A DNA stretch of 64,000 bases from Rhizobium sp. BK316 (GTDB taxonomy: Bacteria; Pseudomonadota; Alphaproteobacteria; Rhizobiales; Rhizobiaceae), in contig NZ_JACHZR010000003.1 of the NCBI RefSeq assembly GCF_014193695.1, positions 620,001 through 684,000 on the forward strand, written 5' to 3'. The notes under the pieces were generated by a model, which had not been told where the DNA came from, ran no database searches, and saw only the letters and a program-made list of their open reading frames with translations. Below are positions 35,666-59,008 of this stretch, in pieces. Both the position numbers and the translations under genes were made by a program. Numbering within the stretch: the first letter of the stretch is position 1; each line of letters starts with the position of its first letter.

Positions 35666-35707
35666 AAAAAGGGGAGAAGGTGAAGGCTTCTGTTGCCAGG
35701 TGCCTTC
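35666..35707 (-). terminator. Probable 3' end of the tmRNA transcript
   Basis: On the minus strand GAAGGC (35702-35707) can pair with GCCTTC (35682-35687) around a 14-nt loop, and UUUUU (complement of 35666-35670) follows about 11 bases later. A modest hairpin at the expected end of the tmRNA precursor. Confidence 0.4.
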
Positions 35708-36020
35708 GGACCCCGCCTTACGGGGCTAACCGTAAGGGCTTAGAGCGGAATTCCCGCACCGCCGTTAGGCAGCGAGAGCGTATTCCTTAGCGTTGTTGTC
35801 GTTTGCAACTACACTTGTGACCCGATAACGGCGGTATCATGCCGAGCGAAAAGTCGATCTTTACACCCTTGTCGATCCTATTTCGCCCCCATCAAAAGCA
35901 GGCCATTCTCCAAAAGGATATCCGCCTGCTTTTGGTGGAGGCGCCGGGTACCGCCCCCGGGTCCAATAGGTTTATTCCACCGCCCGTTTATCGCCATAGC
36001 CGGCCCGAAAGCCAGCATGG
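35690..36020 (-). ncRNA. ssrA: Transfer-messenger RNA, circularly permuted two-piece form
   Basis: tmRNA rescues stalled ribosomes and adds a degradation tag. On the minus strand the acceptor piece comes first and ends in CGCCTCC-ACCA (complement of 35933-35943), preceded by a T-stem CCGGG/CCCGG with a 7-nt loop. A 42-nt linker with a GC-rich hairpin (35891-35932) follows. The coding piece then starts GGGGGCGAAATAGGATCGAC (35890 leftward). GGGGGCG and CGCCTCC form the 7-bp acceptor stem with a G.U at pair 3, the alanine identity element. The tag frame at 35806-35765 encodes ANDNNAKEYALAA and a stop. The outer ends are approximate. Such genes are processed into two RNAs in alphaproteobacteria. 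Confidence 0.93.
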
Positions 36021-36169
36021 GTGATATAGTGTTTTTGTGATCGCAAGGGAAGGGGATACGTCACAAAAGCGTCGTGCTCTCCAGCGATTTAGCTTGGATA
36101 ATCAGCAAGACGCATTGGTTTGCGGCCGCTTTGCCCTTAAATTAGGTGCAAAAGGAATCAGTGGCGACC

Positions 36170-44265: not shown

Positions 44266-46296
44266 TCAGTCCTTATTGTTGAGGCTGCTCAGCGGCTTCT
44301 TCAGGATGCTATCGCGCAGCGACATGCCGCCCTCGCGGCGTGGCGGGGACGTCTGTTCGCCGAAGGCCGGCTTTGGCTGCTCGTCGCGGCGCATTTCGCG
44401 GCGCAGTGCTTCCAGGCGCGCGTCGATGGAGGTCTGCGGCGAGAGCGGCGGGGGCTCAGGATGCGGCGCGCGGCTCTGCGGCAGCAGGGCGGGGCGATAG
44501 GGTTCGAGCGGCGCCTCTGCCGATGGAGCGGCATAGGGTTGATCGGCGGCTTCATCGGCGAAGTCGTCTTCCGGCTCGTAACTGTCTGCCATCGCTGCAC
44601 TGTAGCTCTGCTGGAAGGTGGAGATATCGGGGCCTGCTGTGATCGCCCGCATGCGGGTAACGATGCGGCGCAGGTCGACCGTATCGGGATCTTCCTCGGC
44701 ATGTTTGCTGGTGGCGCTGTGGGCCTTCGGCAGCAGGTTTTCATCGACGCGCAGGAAGCGCATGCGCATCGGCACCCGGATCGCTTCGCCGAAGGCGATT
44801 GCTTCTCCGTTGCCGATCGAGGAGATGAAGCTCGTCGTCGAGATCGAGGAGTTGGGAATGGCCGAGCGGATGATTTCCTGGTCGCGATCGTTGGCAAGGC
44901 GCATGGCAAACAGCGTCGAACACTGCGACAGGATCGTCTGGTCGAGTTCGCCGGGGCGCTGGGTGATGATGCCGAGCGAGACGCCGTATTTGCGGCCTTC
45001 CTTGGCAATGCGGGCGATGGCCTGGCGGGTCGGAACGAAGCCGAGGTTCGGATCCGACGGGATATAGCGGTGGGCCTCTTCACAGACGACCAGCATATGA
45101 ATGGCGCCTTCGCTCCAGAGCGCGATTTCGAAGGCCATGCGGCAGAGCACCGAAGCGACGGAGTTGACGACTTCGGAGGGGATGCCGGCGAGCTGGAAGG
45201 TGCAGATCGGCCTGTTGTCGCCGGGAATGCGGAAGATCTGCGCGATCGTCTCCGTGATCGTGTCGCTGATCGTATTGCTGGAGAACATGAAGTGATAGCG
45301 CGGATCGTTGATCGCGGCGATGATGCGCATCTTCAGCGAGCGCAGGAACGGCTTTTCAGCGCGGCCTTCCAGCCTGCCGATGCGCTCATCGATAAGGGCG
45401 AGCAGATCGGCGATGCGGTAGGGCACCGGTGTATCGGCCGTGATCGAACTCTTTTCTGTCTGGCGGCGCACCAGCGAACTGTCGCTGCCGCGGAAGGCGC
45501 GTTTGGCTTCCGGCAGGATGTCGCGCAGCATGTCGAGCTCTTCCGGCACCGGCGGGCGACCGCGGAAGACGACCTCGGCGAATTCTTCGAGCCGCATCAG
45601 CCAGAAGGGCAGATCGAGCGTATCCGTATCGATGGTGACGGCGTGCTTGGGAAAAGCCGCGGCAAATTCGTTGTGCGGATCGAGGATGAGCACGCGCAGC
45701 TTCGGATCGGCCTCGATCGCCTTGTGCAACAGCAGCGAGACGGCGGTCGACTTGCCGACGCCGGTCGAGCCGACGACGGCGAAATGTTTCGACAGCATCG
45801 AGGGGACATGGATTGCCGCGTCGATGCTTTCATCCTGCGTGAGATTGCCGATGACGGCGGTGGCGCCCTTGCCGGCATCATAGATGCGCATGAGGTCGGC
45901 GGCGCGGATGCGGTGGGCGATGGCGCCGAGATAGGGGTAGCGCGAGATGCCGGTCGAGAATTCCTCGCGGCCATCGTCCTCGACGCGGACTTCGCCGAGC
46001 AGTTCCGTCTCGATGCGGAAGATATTGTCCTGGCCTTCGCCCCAGCCCTGGTTGCCGGTATTCATGGAATAGACGAGGGCGACGACGCGGTTCCTGCCGA
46101 CGCTGATCGAAATCAGCCGGCCGACGGACCATAATTCCGTGAGATCGGTGCCGCCAGATTCTGCCACGGCGGCGATGGTGGCGCGCGATCCGCTGCATGC
46201 AACGACACGCCCGAGAAACCGATTTCCCGGTGCGAGGCTGTCGCGGCGATCCTGCTCGCCTGCTTTGCCTGTCGTCATCATGTCGTTGTTGAGCAA
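44266..46296 (-). CDS. HerA-like ATPase (DUF87 family)
   Basis: A 676-residue HerA/FtsK-class ATPase. An N-terminal HAS-barrel (about 25-140) precedes the RecA-like core with Walker A GSTGVGKST (about 176-184), Walker B MLVVCEEAHRYIP and the arginine-finger region FVPTRQAIARIAKEGRKYGVSLGIITQRP. The last roughly 130 residues are Pro/Ala-rich and probably disordered. HerA enzymes form hexamers that translocate DNA, in archaea with NurA; no NurA-like nuclease is adjacent. It starts with TTG at 46296 behind GGGAG. Its role in bacteria is unclear (DNA repair or segregation, inferred). Confidence 0.88.
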   Translation of the reverse strand: MLNNDMMTTGKAGEQDRRDSLAPGNRFLGRVVACSGSRATIAAVAESGGTDLTELWSVGRLISISVGRNRVVALVYSMNTGNQGWGEGQDNIFRIETELLGEVRVEDDGREEFSTGISRYPYLGAIAHRIRAADLMRIYDAGKGATAVIGNLTQDESIDAAIHVPSMLSKHFAVVGSTGVGKSTAVSLLLHKAIEADPKLRVLILDPHNEFAAAFPKHAVTIDTDTLDLPFWLMRLEEFAEVVFRGRPPVPEELDMLRDILPEAKRAFRGSDSSLVRRQTEKSSITADTPVPYRIADLLALIDERIGRLEGRAEKPFLRSLKMRIIAAINDPRYHFMFSSNTISDTITETIAQIFRIPGDNRPICTFQLAGIPSEVVNSVASVLCRMAFEIALWSEGAIHMLVVCEEAHRYIPSDPNLGFVPTRQAIARIAKEGRKYGVSLGIITQRPGELDQTILSQCSTLFAMRLANDRDQEIIRSAIPNSSISTTSFISSIGNGEAIAFGEAIRVPMRMRFLRVDENLLPKAHSATSKHAEEDPDTVDLRRIVTRMRAITAGPDISTFQQSYSAAMADSYEPEDDFADEAADQPYAAPSAEAPLEPYRPALLPQSRAPHPEPPPLSPQTSIDARLEALRREMRRDEQPKPAFGEQTSPPRREGGMSLRDSILKKPLSSLNNKD

Positions 46297-46424
46297 AGGG
46301 TTACTCCCTGCATTAACGGACAGGATATAACCGATCCTTTAACAAATCCTTCAGCCGCAGAATTGGACGGCCCATCGGACGGTGGGGCGGTTGACGGGCT
46401 TCCGATTTTTTATTGCGGAATGCG

Positions 46425-46453
46425 TTGACGCTGCGAAATTTTCTGTCTATCAC
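46425..46453 (+). promoter_or_regulatory. Probable ilv leader promoter
   Basis: TTGACG (46425-46430) and TATCAC (46448-46453) separated by 17 bp form a good -35/-10 pair. The predicted transcription start, about 7-9 bp after the -10, falls at or right beside the ATG of the leader peptide at 46462. Confidence 0.6.
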
Positions 46454-46461
46454 TTCCGCCC

Positions 46462-46518
46462 ATGACAATTTCGAACGTTCTTATCGTGGTGGGAAAGCGC
46501 ATGGGCAGGATGGTGTAA
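46462..46518 (+). CDS. ilvL: ilv leader peptide
   Basis: An 18-residue frame, MTISNVLIVVGKRMGRMV, ending in TAA. Six of its first ten residues are Ile, Val or Leu (I3, V6, L7, I8, V9, V10), and Val18 comes just before the stop. It lies between a sigma-70-like promoter and a hairpin-terminator pair, 118 bp before ilvI. No Shine-Dalgarno sequence precedes the ATG, and the expected transcription start is at the ATG itself, so translation may be leaderless. Stalling at these codons when branched-chain aminoacyl-tRNAs are scarce would favour the antiterminator. Confidence 0.85.
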   Translation: MTISNVLIVVGKRMGRMV

Positions 46519-46574
46519 CCATCCGGCGATAGCCACCCATGCGCTAGACGAAGGCTCCTCGGGGGCCTTTTTTT
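46497..46574 (+). promoter_or_regulatory. Transcription attenuator upstream of ilvI
   Basis: Two structures follow the Ile/Val/Leu codons. The first is a long hairpin: 9-bp stem GCGCATGGG (46497-46505) with CCCATGCGC (46536-46544), plus an inner GGATGG/CCATCC stem (46508-46513 with 46519-46524) whose loop holds the leader stop codon. The second is a terminator: AAGGCTCC (46551-46558) with GGGGCCTT (46562-46569) running into seven T residues. This is the classic pause-hairpin plus terminator order. The antiterminator pairing was not resolved by eye. Confidence 0.85.
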
Positions 46575-46636
46575 ATGCCCGAAATCAGGGTTTCCGACCA
46601 CAAACTCAAATCCTCAGCATCAAACGGAACAGACAC

Positions 46637-48430
46637 ATGGCGAGCACGGACAATCAGGCGGACAGCAATCGGATGACGGGAGCGGAAATCGTTCTGCGTG
46701 CGCTGAAGGATAATGGCGTCGAGCACATCTTCGGCTATCCCGGCGGTGCCGTTCTGCCGATCTATGACGAGATCTTCCAGCAGGAGGAGGTCAAGCACAT
46801 CCTCGTTCGCCATGAGCAGGGGGCCGGCCATGCGGCCGAAGGTTATGCCCGCTCGACCGGCAAGGTCGGCGTCATGCTGGTGACCTCTGGTCCCGGTGCC
46901 ACCAATGCGGTTACGCCGCTGCAGGATGCGCTGATGGATTCCATTCCGCTCGTCTGCCTGACGGGGCAGGTTCCGACCTCGCTCATCGGTTCGGACGCCT
47001 TTCAGGAATGCGATACCGTCGGCATCACGCGCCCCTGCACCAAGCACAACTGGCTGGTCAAGGATGTCAACGAGCTCGCCGCCGTCATCCATGAAGCCTT
47101 CCGGATTGCGCAGTCGGGCCGTCCTGGCCCCGTCGTTGTCGATATCCCGAAGGATGTTCAGTTCGCCACAGGCACCTACACGCCGCCGGCCGATCACGCG
47201 ATCCAGAAGAGCTACCAGCCGAAGATCCAGGGCGACCTAAACCAGATCCATGCAGCAATCGAAATGATGGCGAATGCCCGGCGGCCGATCTTCTATACCG
47301 GTGGTGGCGTCATCAATTCCGGTCCGGAAGCCTCCCGCATGCTGCGCGAGCTGGTCGAGCTCACAGATTTCCCGATCACCTCGACGCTGATGGGTCTCGG
47401 CGCCTATCCGGCATCCGGCAAGAACTGGCTGAAGATGCTCGGCATGCACGGCTCCTACGAGGCCAACATGGCGATGCATGATTGCGACGTCATGGTCTGC
47501 ATCGGCGCCCGCTTCGACGACCGGATCACCGGCCGCCTGAACGCCTTCTCGCCGAACTCGAAGAAGATCCATATCGATATCGACCCGTCTTCGATCAACA
47601 AGAACGTTCGCGTCGATCTCGGCATCCGCGGCGATGTCGGCCATATCCTGGAAGATATGATCCGCCTGTGGCGGGCGCTGCCGAAGAAGCCGGAAAAGAA
47701 CCGTCTCGATGCATGGTGGGGCGATATCGCCCGCTGGCGCGCGCGCAATTCCTTCGCCTATACTAGGAGCAGCGACGTTATCATGCCGCAATATGCGCTG
47801 GAGCGTCTCTTTGCCCTGACAAAGGACCGCGACACCTACATCACGACGGAAGTCGGCCAGCACCAGATGTGGGCGGCCCAGTTCTTCGGCTTCGAACAGC
47901 CGAACCGCTGGATGACCTCGGGGGGGCTCGGCACGATGGGTTACGGCCTGCCGGCAGCGCTCGGCGTGCAGATCGCCCATCCGGAAAGCCTCGTCATCGA
48001 CATTGCCGGCGATGCCTCGATCCAGATGTGCATCCAGGAAATGTCGGCGGCGATCCAGCACAATGCGCCGATCAAGATCTTCATCATGAACAACCAGTAC
48101 ATGGGCATGGTGCGCCAGTGGCAGCAGCTCCTGCACGGGAACCGGCTGTCCAACTCCTACACGGAGGCGATGCCCGACTTCGTGAAGCTCGCCGAAGCCT
48201 ATGGCGCGGTCGGCCTGCGCTGTGAAAAGCCTGACGATCTCGATGCGACCATCCAGGAGATGATCGACGTCAAGAAGCCCGTCATCTTCGATTGCCGCGT
48301 CGCCAATCTCGCCAACTGCTTCCCGATGATCCCCTCGGGCAAGGCTCATAACGAAATGTTGCTGCCGGACGAAGCCACGGACGAAGCGGTCGCCAATGCG
48401 ATCGACGCCAAGGGCCGTCAGCTCGTATAA
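46637..48430 (+). CDS. ilvI: Acetolactate synthase large subunit
   Basis: A 597-residue thiamine-diphosphate enzyme that condenses pyruvate with pyruvate or 2-oxobutyrate, the first common step in valine, leucine and isoleucine synthesis. The catalytic Glu is in LVRHEQGAGHAAEGYAR. The ThDP/Mg motif is GDASIQMCIQEMSAAIQHNAPIKIFIMNN. The FAD-binding middle domain includes RFDDRITGRLNAFSP. The ATG has GGAA upstream. It is co-transcribed with ilvH 24 bp downstream and controlled by the leader-peptide attenuator. Confidence 0.97.
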   Translation: MASTDNQADSNRMTGAEIVLRALKDNGVEHIFGYPGGAVLPIYDEIFQQEEVKHILVRHEQGAGHAAEGYARSTGKVGVMLVTSGPGATNAVTPLQDALMDSIPLVCLTGQVPTSLIGSDAFQECDTVGITRPCTKHNWLVKDVNELAAVIHEAFRIAQSGRPGPVVVDIPKDVQFATGTYTPPADHAIQKSYQPKIQGDLNQIHAAIEMMANARRPIFYTGGGVINSGPEASRMLRELVELTDFPITSTLMGLGAYPASGKNWLKMLGMHGSYEANMAMHDCDVMVCIGARFDDRITGRLNAFSPNSKKIHIDIDPSSINKNVRVDLGIRGDVGHILEDMIRLWRALPKKPEKNRLDAWWGDIARWRARNSFAYTRSSDVIMPQYALERLFALTKDRDTYITTEVGQHQMWAAQFFGFEQPNRWMTSGGLGTMGYGLPAALGVQIAHPESLVIDIAGDASIQMCIQEMSAAIQHNAPIKIFIMNNQYMGMVRQWQQLLHGNRLSNSYTEAMPDFVKLAEAYGAVGLRCEKPDDLDATIQEMIDVKKPVIFDCRVANLANCFPMIPSGKAHNEMLLPDEATDEAVANAIDAKGRQLV

Positions 48431-57706: not shown

Positions 57707-59008
57707 ATGCCCATGCAGAACCAGAATCCTCGCCTTATCGAAGCCCTTTCGCAACTTGATCAGCTCACCAACTGGGAACAGCGTCCGCGCGGCGAAATGC
57801 GCGTCGGACTGGAGCCGATCATTGATCTCTCCGCCCGTCTCGGCAATCCGCACCACGCCTTCCGCTCGATCCATGTGGCGGGCACCAAGGGCAAGAGCTC
57901 GACCTCGGCGCTGCTCGAAGCGGGGCTGCGCCATGCCGGCATTTCCGTCGGGCGTTATGCGTCGCCGCATGTGGAGCACATTTCCGAGCGTGTCAGCATC
58001 AACAGCCGGCCGGTTGAGGAGGCTGTGCTGGCCGAGGCGCTCTTCCTGGCGCTCGATGCCTTGCGCGCTGCAAGGACGGAAGGGACAGCGGCAGAGGCTG
58101 CGACATGGTTCGATATGCTGACGGCGGCCGGCTTCCTGATCTTCCGGGATGCGGGCGTAAAATGGGCCGTGGTCGAGACGGGTCTCGGCGGGAGGCTGGA
58201 TTCCACCAATATCGTTGCGAGCGACGTTTCCATCATCACCAATATCGGCCTCGAACATACGGAGATATTGGGCAAGACGCGCGCCGCCATCGCCTTCGAA
58301 AAGGCCGGCATCATCAAGCCGCATTCGACGGTGGTGACACCGGTTGAGGCCGACGATGAGGCGGGCGCGGTCATTGCCAAGCGCGCTGTCGAAATCGAAG
58401 CGCGGCTTATCCGGCCGGATTTTTCCGGGCTGAAGACGATTGCCGAGCGCAATGTCGCCGTTGCAGGTGCCGCACTCGACGTGCTGGGCGAACTCGGCGT
58501 GGAGGCGCAGGATGGCCGGAAGGTCGGCGGATGGCTGATCGACAAGGCGGCCGAGCAGGAATCACAATTGCCGGGTCGGTTGGAGCATTTCGTCGTGCCC
58601 GTCGCGGGCAGGGGCGTTTCCGTCGCGCTCGACGGGGCGCATGTGCCCTTCAATCTCGAAGCTGTGCTGGACGATCTCTTCGGCATGGAGGGGTTTGCCG
58701 GACCGGGTATCGCGGTCGTTGCGATTGCGGCGGATAAGGATGCCGCCGGGCTCCTCGAAGTGATGGGCGGTTACGGTGTCTCGCCGATCTTCACGTCGGT
58801 TTCGGACCGTTTTCGTTCGCCTGCCGAACTGCGAGAGCTTGCCGACACGATCGGCCTTGCCAGCGAAGTGATCGACGATCCGCAGAAGGCTTACGAGAAG
58901 GCGCTCGAGCGGGCTGCCGGCACCGGCGCCTGGGTGATCCTCACGGGGTCGCTTTATCTCGTTGGGGTTCTACGTGAGCGGATCATTCGGGAAGCCGCGA
59001 AAAGCTAG
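57707..59008 (+). CDS. folC: FolC-like folylpolyglutamate/dihydrofolate synthase
   Basis: A 433-residue Mur-ligase-fold enzyme. The P-loop is HVAGTKGKSST (about 57-66), followed by GRYASPHVEHISERVSIN, WAVVETGLGGRLDSTN and NIGLEHTEILGKTRAAIAFEKAGIIK, all FolC hallmarks. FolC adds glutamate to dihydropteroate and/or folates. It stands alone here, whereas rhizobia usually have folC behind accD, so this could be a second, diverged copy; the P-loop has Lys where many FolC proteins have Asn. ATG at 57707 lacks a good ribosome-binding site. Confidence 0.82.
   Translation: MPMQNQNPRLIEALSQLDQLTNWEQRPRGEMRVGLEPIIDLSARLGNPHHAFRSIHVAGTKGKSSTSALLEAGLRHAGISVGRYASPHVEHISERVSINSRPVEEAVLAEALFLALDALRAARTEGTAAEAATWFDMLTAAGFLIFRDAGVKWAVVETGLGGRLDSTNIVASDVSIITNIGLEHTEILGKTRAAIAFEKAGIIKPHSTVVTPVEADDEAGAVIAKRAVEIEARLIRPDFSGLKTIAERNVAVAGAALDVLGELGVEAQDGRKVGGWLIDKAAEQESQLPGRLEHFVVPVAGRGVSVALDGAHVPFNLEAVLDDLFGMEGFAGPGIAVVAIAADKDAAGLLEVMGGYGVSPIFTSVSDRFRSPAELRELADTIGLASEVIDDPQKAYEKALERAAGTGAWVILTGSLYLVGVLRERIIREAAKS

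Follow-up and report, generated by a model that had tools for sequence, protein, structure and literature searches.

The ilvIH operon of Rhizobium sp. BK316 is preceded by a short reading frame rich in isoleucine, leucine and valine codons, and the locus raises the question of whether this frame governs the operon and, if so, from where on its message it is translated. The window that we analysed is a stretch of 64,000 nt (contig NZ_JACHZR010000003.1, positions 620,001 to 684,000), and all positions below refer to it unless another stretch is named. In our judgment, the locus is very likely a branched-chain amino acid attenuator of the ilvIH operon whose leader peptide is made from a leaderless message. 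The RNA and the kind of control are already known, from Rfam family RF02502 and from an alpha-proteobacterial ilv leader in print since 2004. What we add is the leaderless layout, which hardly varies across the family, and the finding that the leader is used again in front of transporters. Our analysis shows the ORF with its conservation and codon choice, the RNA structure through covariation, and the promoter-to-ATG geometry.

Table 1. Features of the ilvIH leader locus, and leader copies that precede transporters elsewhere.
Feature	Position	Strand	Details
-35 element TTGACG	46425..46430	+	begins 37 nt before leader ATG; TTGAC at 34-38 nt in 106/106 fetched family ilvI leaders
-10 element CTATCA	46447..46452	+	begins 15 nt before leader ATG; final T absent; same spacing in own trpL
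Leader ORF ilvL, MTISNVLIVVGKRMGRMV	46462..46518	+	18 codons, ATG 46462-46464, TAA 46516-46518; without Shine-Dalgarno; predicted transcription start 46462
Control codons GTT CTT ATC GTG GTG (V L I V V)	46477..46491	+	Ile/Leu/Val run of at least 4 in 92/93 distinct family ORFs before acetolactate synthase
Rfam RF02502 Atu_C8 match	46464..46584	+	121 bits, gathering score 50
1:2 branched structure	46496..46545	+	outer stem 46496-46505/46536-46545; MFE fold, covariation in relatives
Intrinsic terminator and T-run	46550..46574	+	stem 46550-46558/46562-46570, T-run 46568-46574; MFE fold, terminator scan
ilvI, acetolactate synthase large subunit, 597 aa	46637..48430	+	NF006581 1229 bits, cut-off 974
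ilvH, acetolactate synthase small subunit, 190 aa	48455..49027	+	TIGR00119 168.8 bits, cut-off 56.9
Transporter-leader copies	L012, L023-L026, L029, L035, L038, L040, L041		valine-rich run before Bcr/CflA-like MFS transporter
Transporter-leader copies among relatives, with valine-rich run	L206-L240, L243, L244, L246-L249, L251-L254, L257-L259, L261, L263-L266		

The first-pass annotation had placed an 18-codon frame with clustered Ile, Val and Leu codons between a -35/-10 pair and a hairpin plus terminator, and this is the arrangement found. Its proposal of an ilv leader peptide with an attenuator before acetolactate synthase is borne out as attenuator-like anatomy, by ilvI and ilvH, which both exceed their NCBIfam cut-offs, and by the RF02502 match of 121 bits. 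Isoleucine, leucine and valine occupy 7 of the 18 codons, five of them consecutive (V6-V10); of the 342 window ORFs that begin with ATG and are 12-25 codons long, 3 contain a run of at least five, ilvL being one of the three. The stop codon lies where it had been predicted, in the loop of the first hairpin: the MFE fold puts the TAA at the apex of an inner hairpin (46508-46514/46518-46524), which is followed by a small hairpin at 46525-46534. Upstream, a divergent ORF starts at 46296, and 165 nt separate that start from the leader ATG. A terminator scan of 46300-46700 made one call, at 46550-46570 (shuffled sequences average 0.5), and a simple sigma-70 scan of the same interval returned no promoter-like site, leaving the TTGACG/CTATCA pair uncalled.

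Relatives retain this frame. The 195 leader copies that we fetched came from the top of the hit lists rather than at random, and the tests made on them ignore relatedness. Among them are 106 copies from the family (Rhizobiaceae) with acetolactate synthase downstream, and 106/106 carry an Ile/Leu/Val-rich short ORF; one of the 195 (L081) has no synthase because its contig ends. Under the Ile/Leu/Val filter, L029 yields no ORF and L026 a shortened one, but reading either copy from its first ATG places TTGAC at 35-36 nt. In the 93 distinct family ORFs before acetolactate synthase, the longest Ile/Leu/Val run averages 4.6 codons in frame versus 0.7 in the two other frames. The run and its place before the synthase are preserved across many families. 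The control codons are nearly devoid of CTG and GTC, and ATC is under-used. With leaders drawn from many genomes and five window ORFs from one genome as the reference, leucine is CTG in 2/106 versus 83/188 cases, valine GTC in 4/205 versus 84/133, and isoleucine ATC in 43/119 versus 139/158; CTC is common in both sets.

The RNA structure is likewise supported by comparison. In an alignment of 73 of 83 picked divergent leaders (L026, L072, L080, L081, L082, L095, L103, L106, L110 and L140 were omitted), 95.6% of the cells of the outer 1:2 stem are paired and 7 of its 9 pairs have changed on both sides; for the terminator the corresponding figures are 89.8% and 6 of 7 pairs, and the inner hairpin is paired in 70.6% of cells. 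Overall, 18 of 21 pairs show two-sided changes, and the covariation score is 0.367, compared with 0.180 in shuffles (0/500 reach 0.367) and at most 0.167 when the structure is slid along the alignment. Covariation within the family alone is weak because the RNA is too conserved there. Two other candidate elements were set aside: a 5' hairpin over the Ile/Leu/Val codons, seen in the MFE fold of the window, is missing from the consensus fold, and the closing pairs that Rfam draws between the ORF end and bases past the T-run are in part non-standard in the window and were not used.

The covariance model of RF02502, "Rhizobiales sRNA Atu_C8", is matched end to end in the window, at 121 bits against a gathering score of 50. 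By our own reading of the model, its consensus with AT prefixed encodes MKNTMIILVVGPRMGRAV, an 18-codon ORF rich in the same three residues. At E <= 0.001 the model is found in 290 of the 297 family genomes searched, the 7 misses being genomes of 1.2-2.0 Mb, in 217 of 397 genomes drawn from the order, and in 4 of 190 genomes of the class, which include our own genome and one of the same order. The Atu names reportedly originate with Wilms 2012. Among the matches listed in a literature search, the word Atu_C8 was not found. The control itself has a longer record: an alpha-proteobacterial "ilvB leader peptide" is attributed to Vitreschak et al. 2004 in a passage of PMC1273637, and an "ilvIH cis regulatory" element of S. 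meliloti is attributed to the same paper in a passage of PMC2573895. Elsewhere in the window, a ZMP/ZTP riboswitch (RF01750, 57605-57685, 65.9 bits) lies shortly upstream of a 433-aa ORF (57707-59008) that by eye resembles a folylpolyglutamate synthase, and an alpha-proteobacterial tmRNA (RF01849, 300 bits) occupies 35679-36055 on the minus strand.

Membership of a catalogued sRNA family, together with the presence of two copies in our genome, favors the idea of an additional trans activity of the leader RNA or peptide after release, for which rnTrpL and peTrpL set a precedent in the accounts given in PMC7298713 and PMC10117765. Such action would be compatible with attenuation of ilvIH in cis. 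Nevertheless, structure and codons in cis account for the conserved parts, and we regard an additional role in trans as rather unlikely.

How translation of ilvL begins is best approached through the distance between promoter and start codon. Each of the 106 fetched Rhizobiaceae ilvI leaders has an ATG in frame that TTGAC precedes by 34-38 nt (34 nt in 1, 35 in 6, 36 in 11, 37 in 73 and 38 in 15). Because our start rule picks ATG whenever one is in frame, this figure speaks for the presence of the codon in every leader and does not demonstrate its use. As background, 10 of 2106 ATGs in the window have TTGAC at this distance. Other positions, counted from the ATG, are also largely constant in the 106 leaders: C occupies -1 in 101 and -2 in 94 of them, position -14 is T in 91 and -13 is A in 84, and the start context is ATGA in 104. 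The first-pass annotation had noted no Shine-Dalgarno sequence before ilvL; indeed, a tetramer search found no SD-like tetramer upstream of the leader ATG, and only 2 of the 106 family leaders have one. The trpL of the same genome (MKKSLNIAVWWWAR), located beside trpE, is built alike, with TTGCGC at -37, CTAACA at -15 and CCC directly before ATGA. A search with a pattern for a trpL-like leader of fixed spacing gave no match.

The leaders with and without this geometry differ in their starts. Where TTGAC abuts (34-38 nt; 133/194 leaders), a GTG start occurs in 0/133 and an SD-like motif in 3/133, whereas the remaining 61/194 have GTG in 16/61 and an SD-like motif in 40/61 (Fisher p 2e-9 for GTG and 2e-22 for SD-like motifs, with relatedness ignored and a start rule that prefers ATG). 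For S. meliloti, the 5' end of rnTrpL is placed at the AUG of trpL, making it leaderless, in the descriptions of PMC10117765 and PMC7298713, and all 171 leaderless transcripts reported in the relevant part of PMC3616915 begin with AUG, partly by definition there. Among the points against a leaderless ilvL is the edge of the RF02502 model, which falls on the G of the leader ATG (46464), the third base of the start codon; were this edge to reflect a mapped 5' end, the transcript would lack its AUG. The suggestion of the first-pass annotation that ilvL may be leaderless nonetheless gains from comparison, through a constant promoter-to-ATG distance equal to that of the genome's own trpL, the missing SD sequence and the confinement of GTG starts to leaders without an abutting promoter. 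On this comparative footing, ilvL is probably read from the first base of its mRNA.

If transcription instead began upstream of 46462, the message would carry a short 5' untranslated region and the locus would be an ordinary attenuator. The 165 nt up to the divergent ORF would accommodate such a start, and SD-like motifs are frequent in the leaders that other families have before acetolactate synthase (40/78). Within our own family, their near absence (2/106), a TTGAC whose place at -37 suits a start at the ATG and repeats the geometry of trpL, and the lack of GTG in all 133 leaders with abutting TTGAC make an upstream start improbable.

The leader shows no evident antiterminator. The first-pass annotation had proposed comparing relatives for covariation and for a 2:3 antiterminator; the 1:2 stem and the terminator covary, whereas no conserved 2:3 helix emerged from 191 distinct leaders or from the alignment of 73, by a test that E. 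coli ilvL also fails. Across the 191 leaders, the stretch that a stalled ribosome would free pairs with the 5' arm of the terminator more weakly on average than in shuffled sequence, with mean z values of the duplex energy of +0.96 in 108 family leaders and +0.58 in 83 others, and among eight segment pairs tested the 1:2 stem alone gives a negative mean z. The best helices average 4.3 and 4.9 bp, lie below the shuffled expectation and share no common position. The same helix test finds 5-8 bp in E. coli thr, trp, his and leu and in the genome's own trpL, whose antiterminator helix is the 6-bp GGCGGC:GCCGCC, and 4 bp (z -0.43) in E. coli ilvL; since that leader too reaches only 4 bp, a missed helix does not disprove attenuation. 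In C. glutamicum ilvBNC, antiterminator and terminator overlap by three nucleotides, according to the account of that leader in PMC11857589. A count of MFE folds just before the terminator closes, made with no requirement of conservation and no shuffles, has at least 5 bases of the 5' arm paired upstream in 53/108 family and 68/83 other leaders, and 5-12 such bases in the controls. The free-energy difference "no terminator minus MFE" (12.3 kcal/mol for the window leader) was dropped because it lay at a similar or higher level in the six controls (13.7-28.0 kcal/mol).

That the terminator works at a fixed level, with a leader ORF of no effect on read-through and an RNA that is mainly a stable sRNA or small mRNA, would fit the Rfam class of Atu_C8 and the lack, in 191 leaders, of a conserved 2:3 helix such as the 5-8 bp of E. 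coli thr, trp, his and leu and of trpL, yet is quite improbable given the Ile/Leu/Val run and position preserved before the synthase in many families, the unusual codons within the family, the failure of E. coli ilvL in the same helix test and the upstream pairing of the 5' arm in the pre-terminator folds, a count made with no shuffles.

The leaderless attenuator that we prefer would work as follows. Transcription would start at, or 1-2 bases from, the A of the leader ATG at 46462, and such a start would make the ilvL message leaderless. As long as charged tRNAs for Ile, Leu and Val are available, the ribosome would travel on to the stop codon, at the 1:2 apex, and the polymerase would halt at the terminator, yielding, as is usual for such attenuators, an RNA of ~110 nt of the Atu_C8 kind. 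When charged tRNA for V-L-I-V-V runs short, the ribosome would stall, masking the 5' side of the 1:2 stem, and a larger number of polymerases would then continue into ilvIH. The way in which the stall would defeat the terminator is not visible in the sequence, and the missing evident antiterminator raises a question of mechanism.

The leader is not confined to ilvIH. A second copy in our genome, MKIAMVLVVVISRMGRTV (G000:C3:855824-855946; L004 3825-3947), also has its TTGAC 37 nt before the ATG and precedes a second gene for an acetolactate synthase large subunit (L004 3983-5800; NF006581, 1026 bits). No small subunit was recognised by eye beside it among the listed ORFs of at least 100 aa in the 8-kb stretch. 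Elsewhere, leader matches come in pairs ~2.7 kb apart, each with an acetolactate synthase match downstream, in two genomes (L088 and L106 in G260, L098 and L111 in G306).

Five family genomes and five genomes of another family of the order carry the leader before an MFS transporter, whose best family is TIGR00710 Bcr/CflA (cut-off 200.9): one protein scores above it, at 210.8 bits, and another below, at 178.9. The leader accompanies 53 of 64 named relatives of the transporter. By record title, 57 of the 64 are alpha-proteobacterial; two of these lack the leader and two (L241 and L262) have upstream sequence of 2 and 52 nt and cannot be judged. The 7 others, from Variovorax (twice), Rhizobacter, a gamma-proteobacterial MAG and three Thermoplasmata, have no leader; the misses with upstream sequence are L242, L245, L250, L255, L256, L260, L267, L268 and L269. 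Transporter leaders occur in Rhizobium, Mesorhizobium, Phyllobacterium, Devosia and Pelagibacterium. The TTGAC-to-ATG distance is 35-38 nt for 50 of the 53 copies, and VVV appears in the control run of 42/53, versus 2/106 family leaders before the synthase. The transporter itself is without a close relative in our genome, where its matches show 23-32% identity. The titles and abstract openings of the literature matches listed held nothing on a leader before a Bcr/CflA-like transporter.

The five genomes of that other family hold both leaders (L023 and L054, L024 and L092, L025 and L051, L026 and L064, L029 and L049). In all five, the transporter copy has TTGAC at 35-36 nt, an ATG and no SD-like motif, whereas the ilvI copy has no TTGAC at 34-38 nt and an SD-like motif, with GTG in 4/5. 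This coexistence points to two modes of translation start in one cell. Taken together, these observations incline us, with some reserve, to see the leaderless ilv attenuator as a reusable module. Before the Bcr/CflA-like transporter of the five genera, its control codons would have moved to a valine run, with the presumed exporter answering to valyl-tRNA supply or to ribosome-stalling drugs; our second copy would drive an orphan acetolactate synthase; and paralogous control ORFs would start translation in two ways within one cell.

These findings may be relevant in several respects. First, a family catalogued as "sRNA" becomes linked to a leader peptide, and Atu_C8 reads may accordingly reflect attenuation at ilvIH. 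Second, ilvL would join trpL as a second probable leaderless leader peptide of rhizobia, and it is conserved in the family. Relatives with an SD-like motif, and sometimes GTG, lend themselves naturally to the question of what leaderless initiation requires. Finally, the transporter copies, if functional, would represent an amino acid attenuator co-opted for export or drug response.

It is useful to compare this leader with known systems. One of them is RF02502 itself, whose whole model the window matches and whose consensus likewise encodes an Ile/Leu/Val-rich ORF; the entry, however, is named as a small RNA, and its name carries no leader peptide or attenuator role. The ilv leader described for alpha-proteobacteria is likewise a leader peptide attenuator before ilvB or ilvIH, but the passages on it in PMC1273637 and PMC2573895 mention no leaderless start, unlike our reading of ilvL. 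A leaderless leader peptide with a terminated leader RNA, as proposed for ilvL, is what PMC10117765 and PMC7298713 describe in their accounts of S. meliloti trpL/rnTrpL. The trpL of our genome shares the promoter distances of ilvL and has a CCC-ATGA start; it differs in its Trp codons and in having a 6-bp antiterminator helix, where the ilv leader has none evident. By description, ilvL also resembles the Caulobacter ilvL of another alpha-proteobacterium, a leader CDS with attenuation before an acetolactate synthase operon as outlined in PMC4117421, and the actinobacterial C. glutamicum ilvBNC leader, which the corresponding section of PMC11857589 treats as leaderless, with a start that lies a single nucleotide away from the start codon of the leader and with CUU and GUA as control codons.
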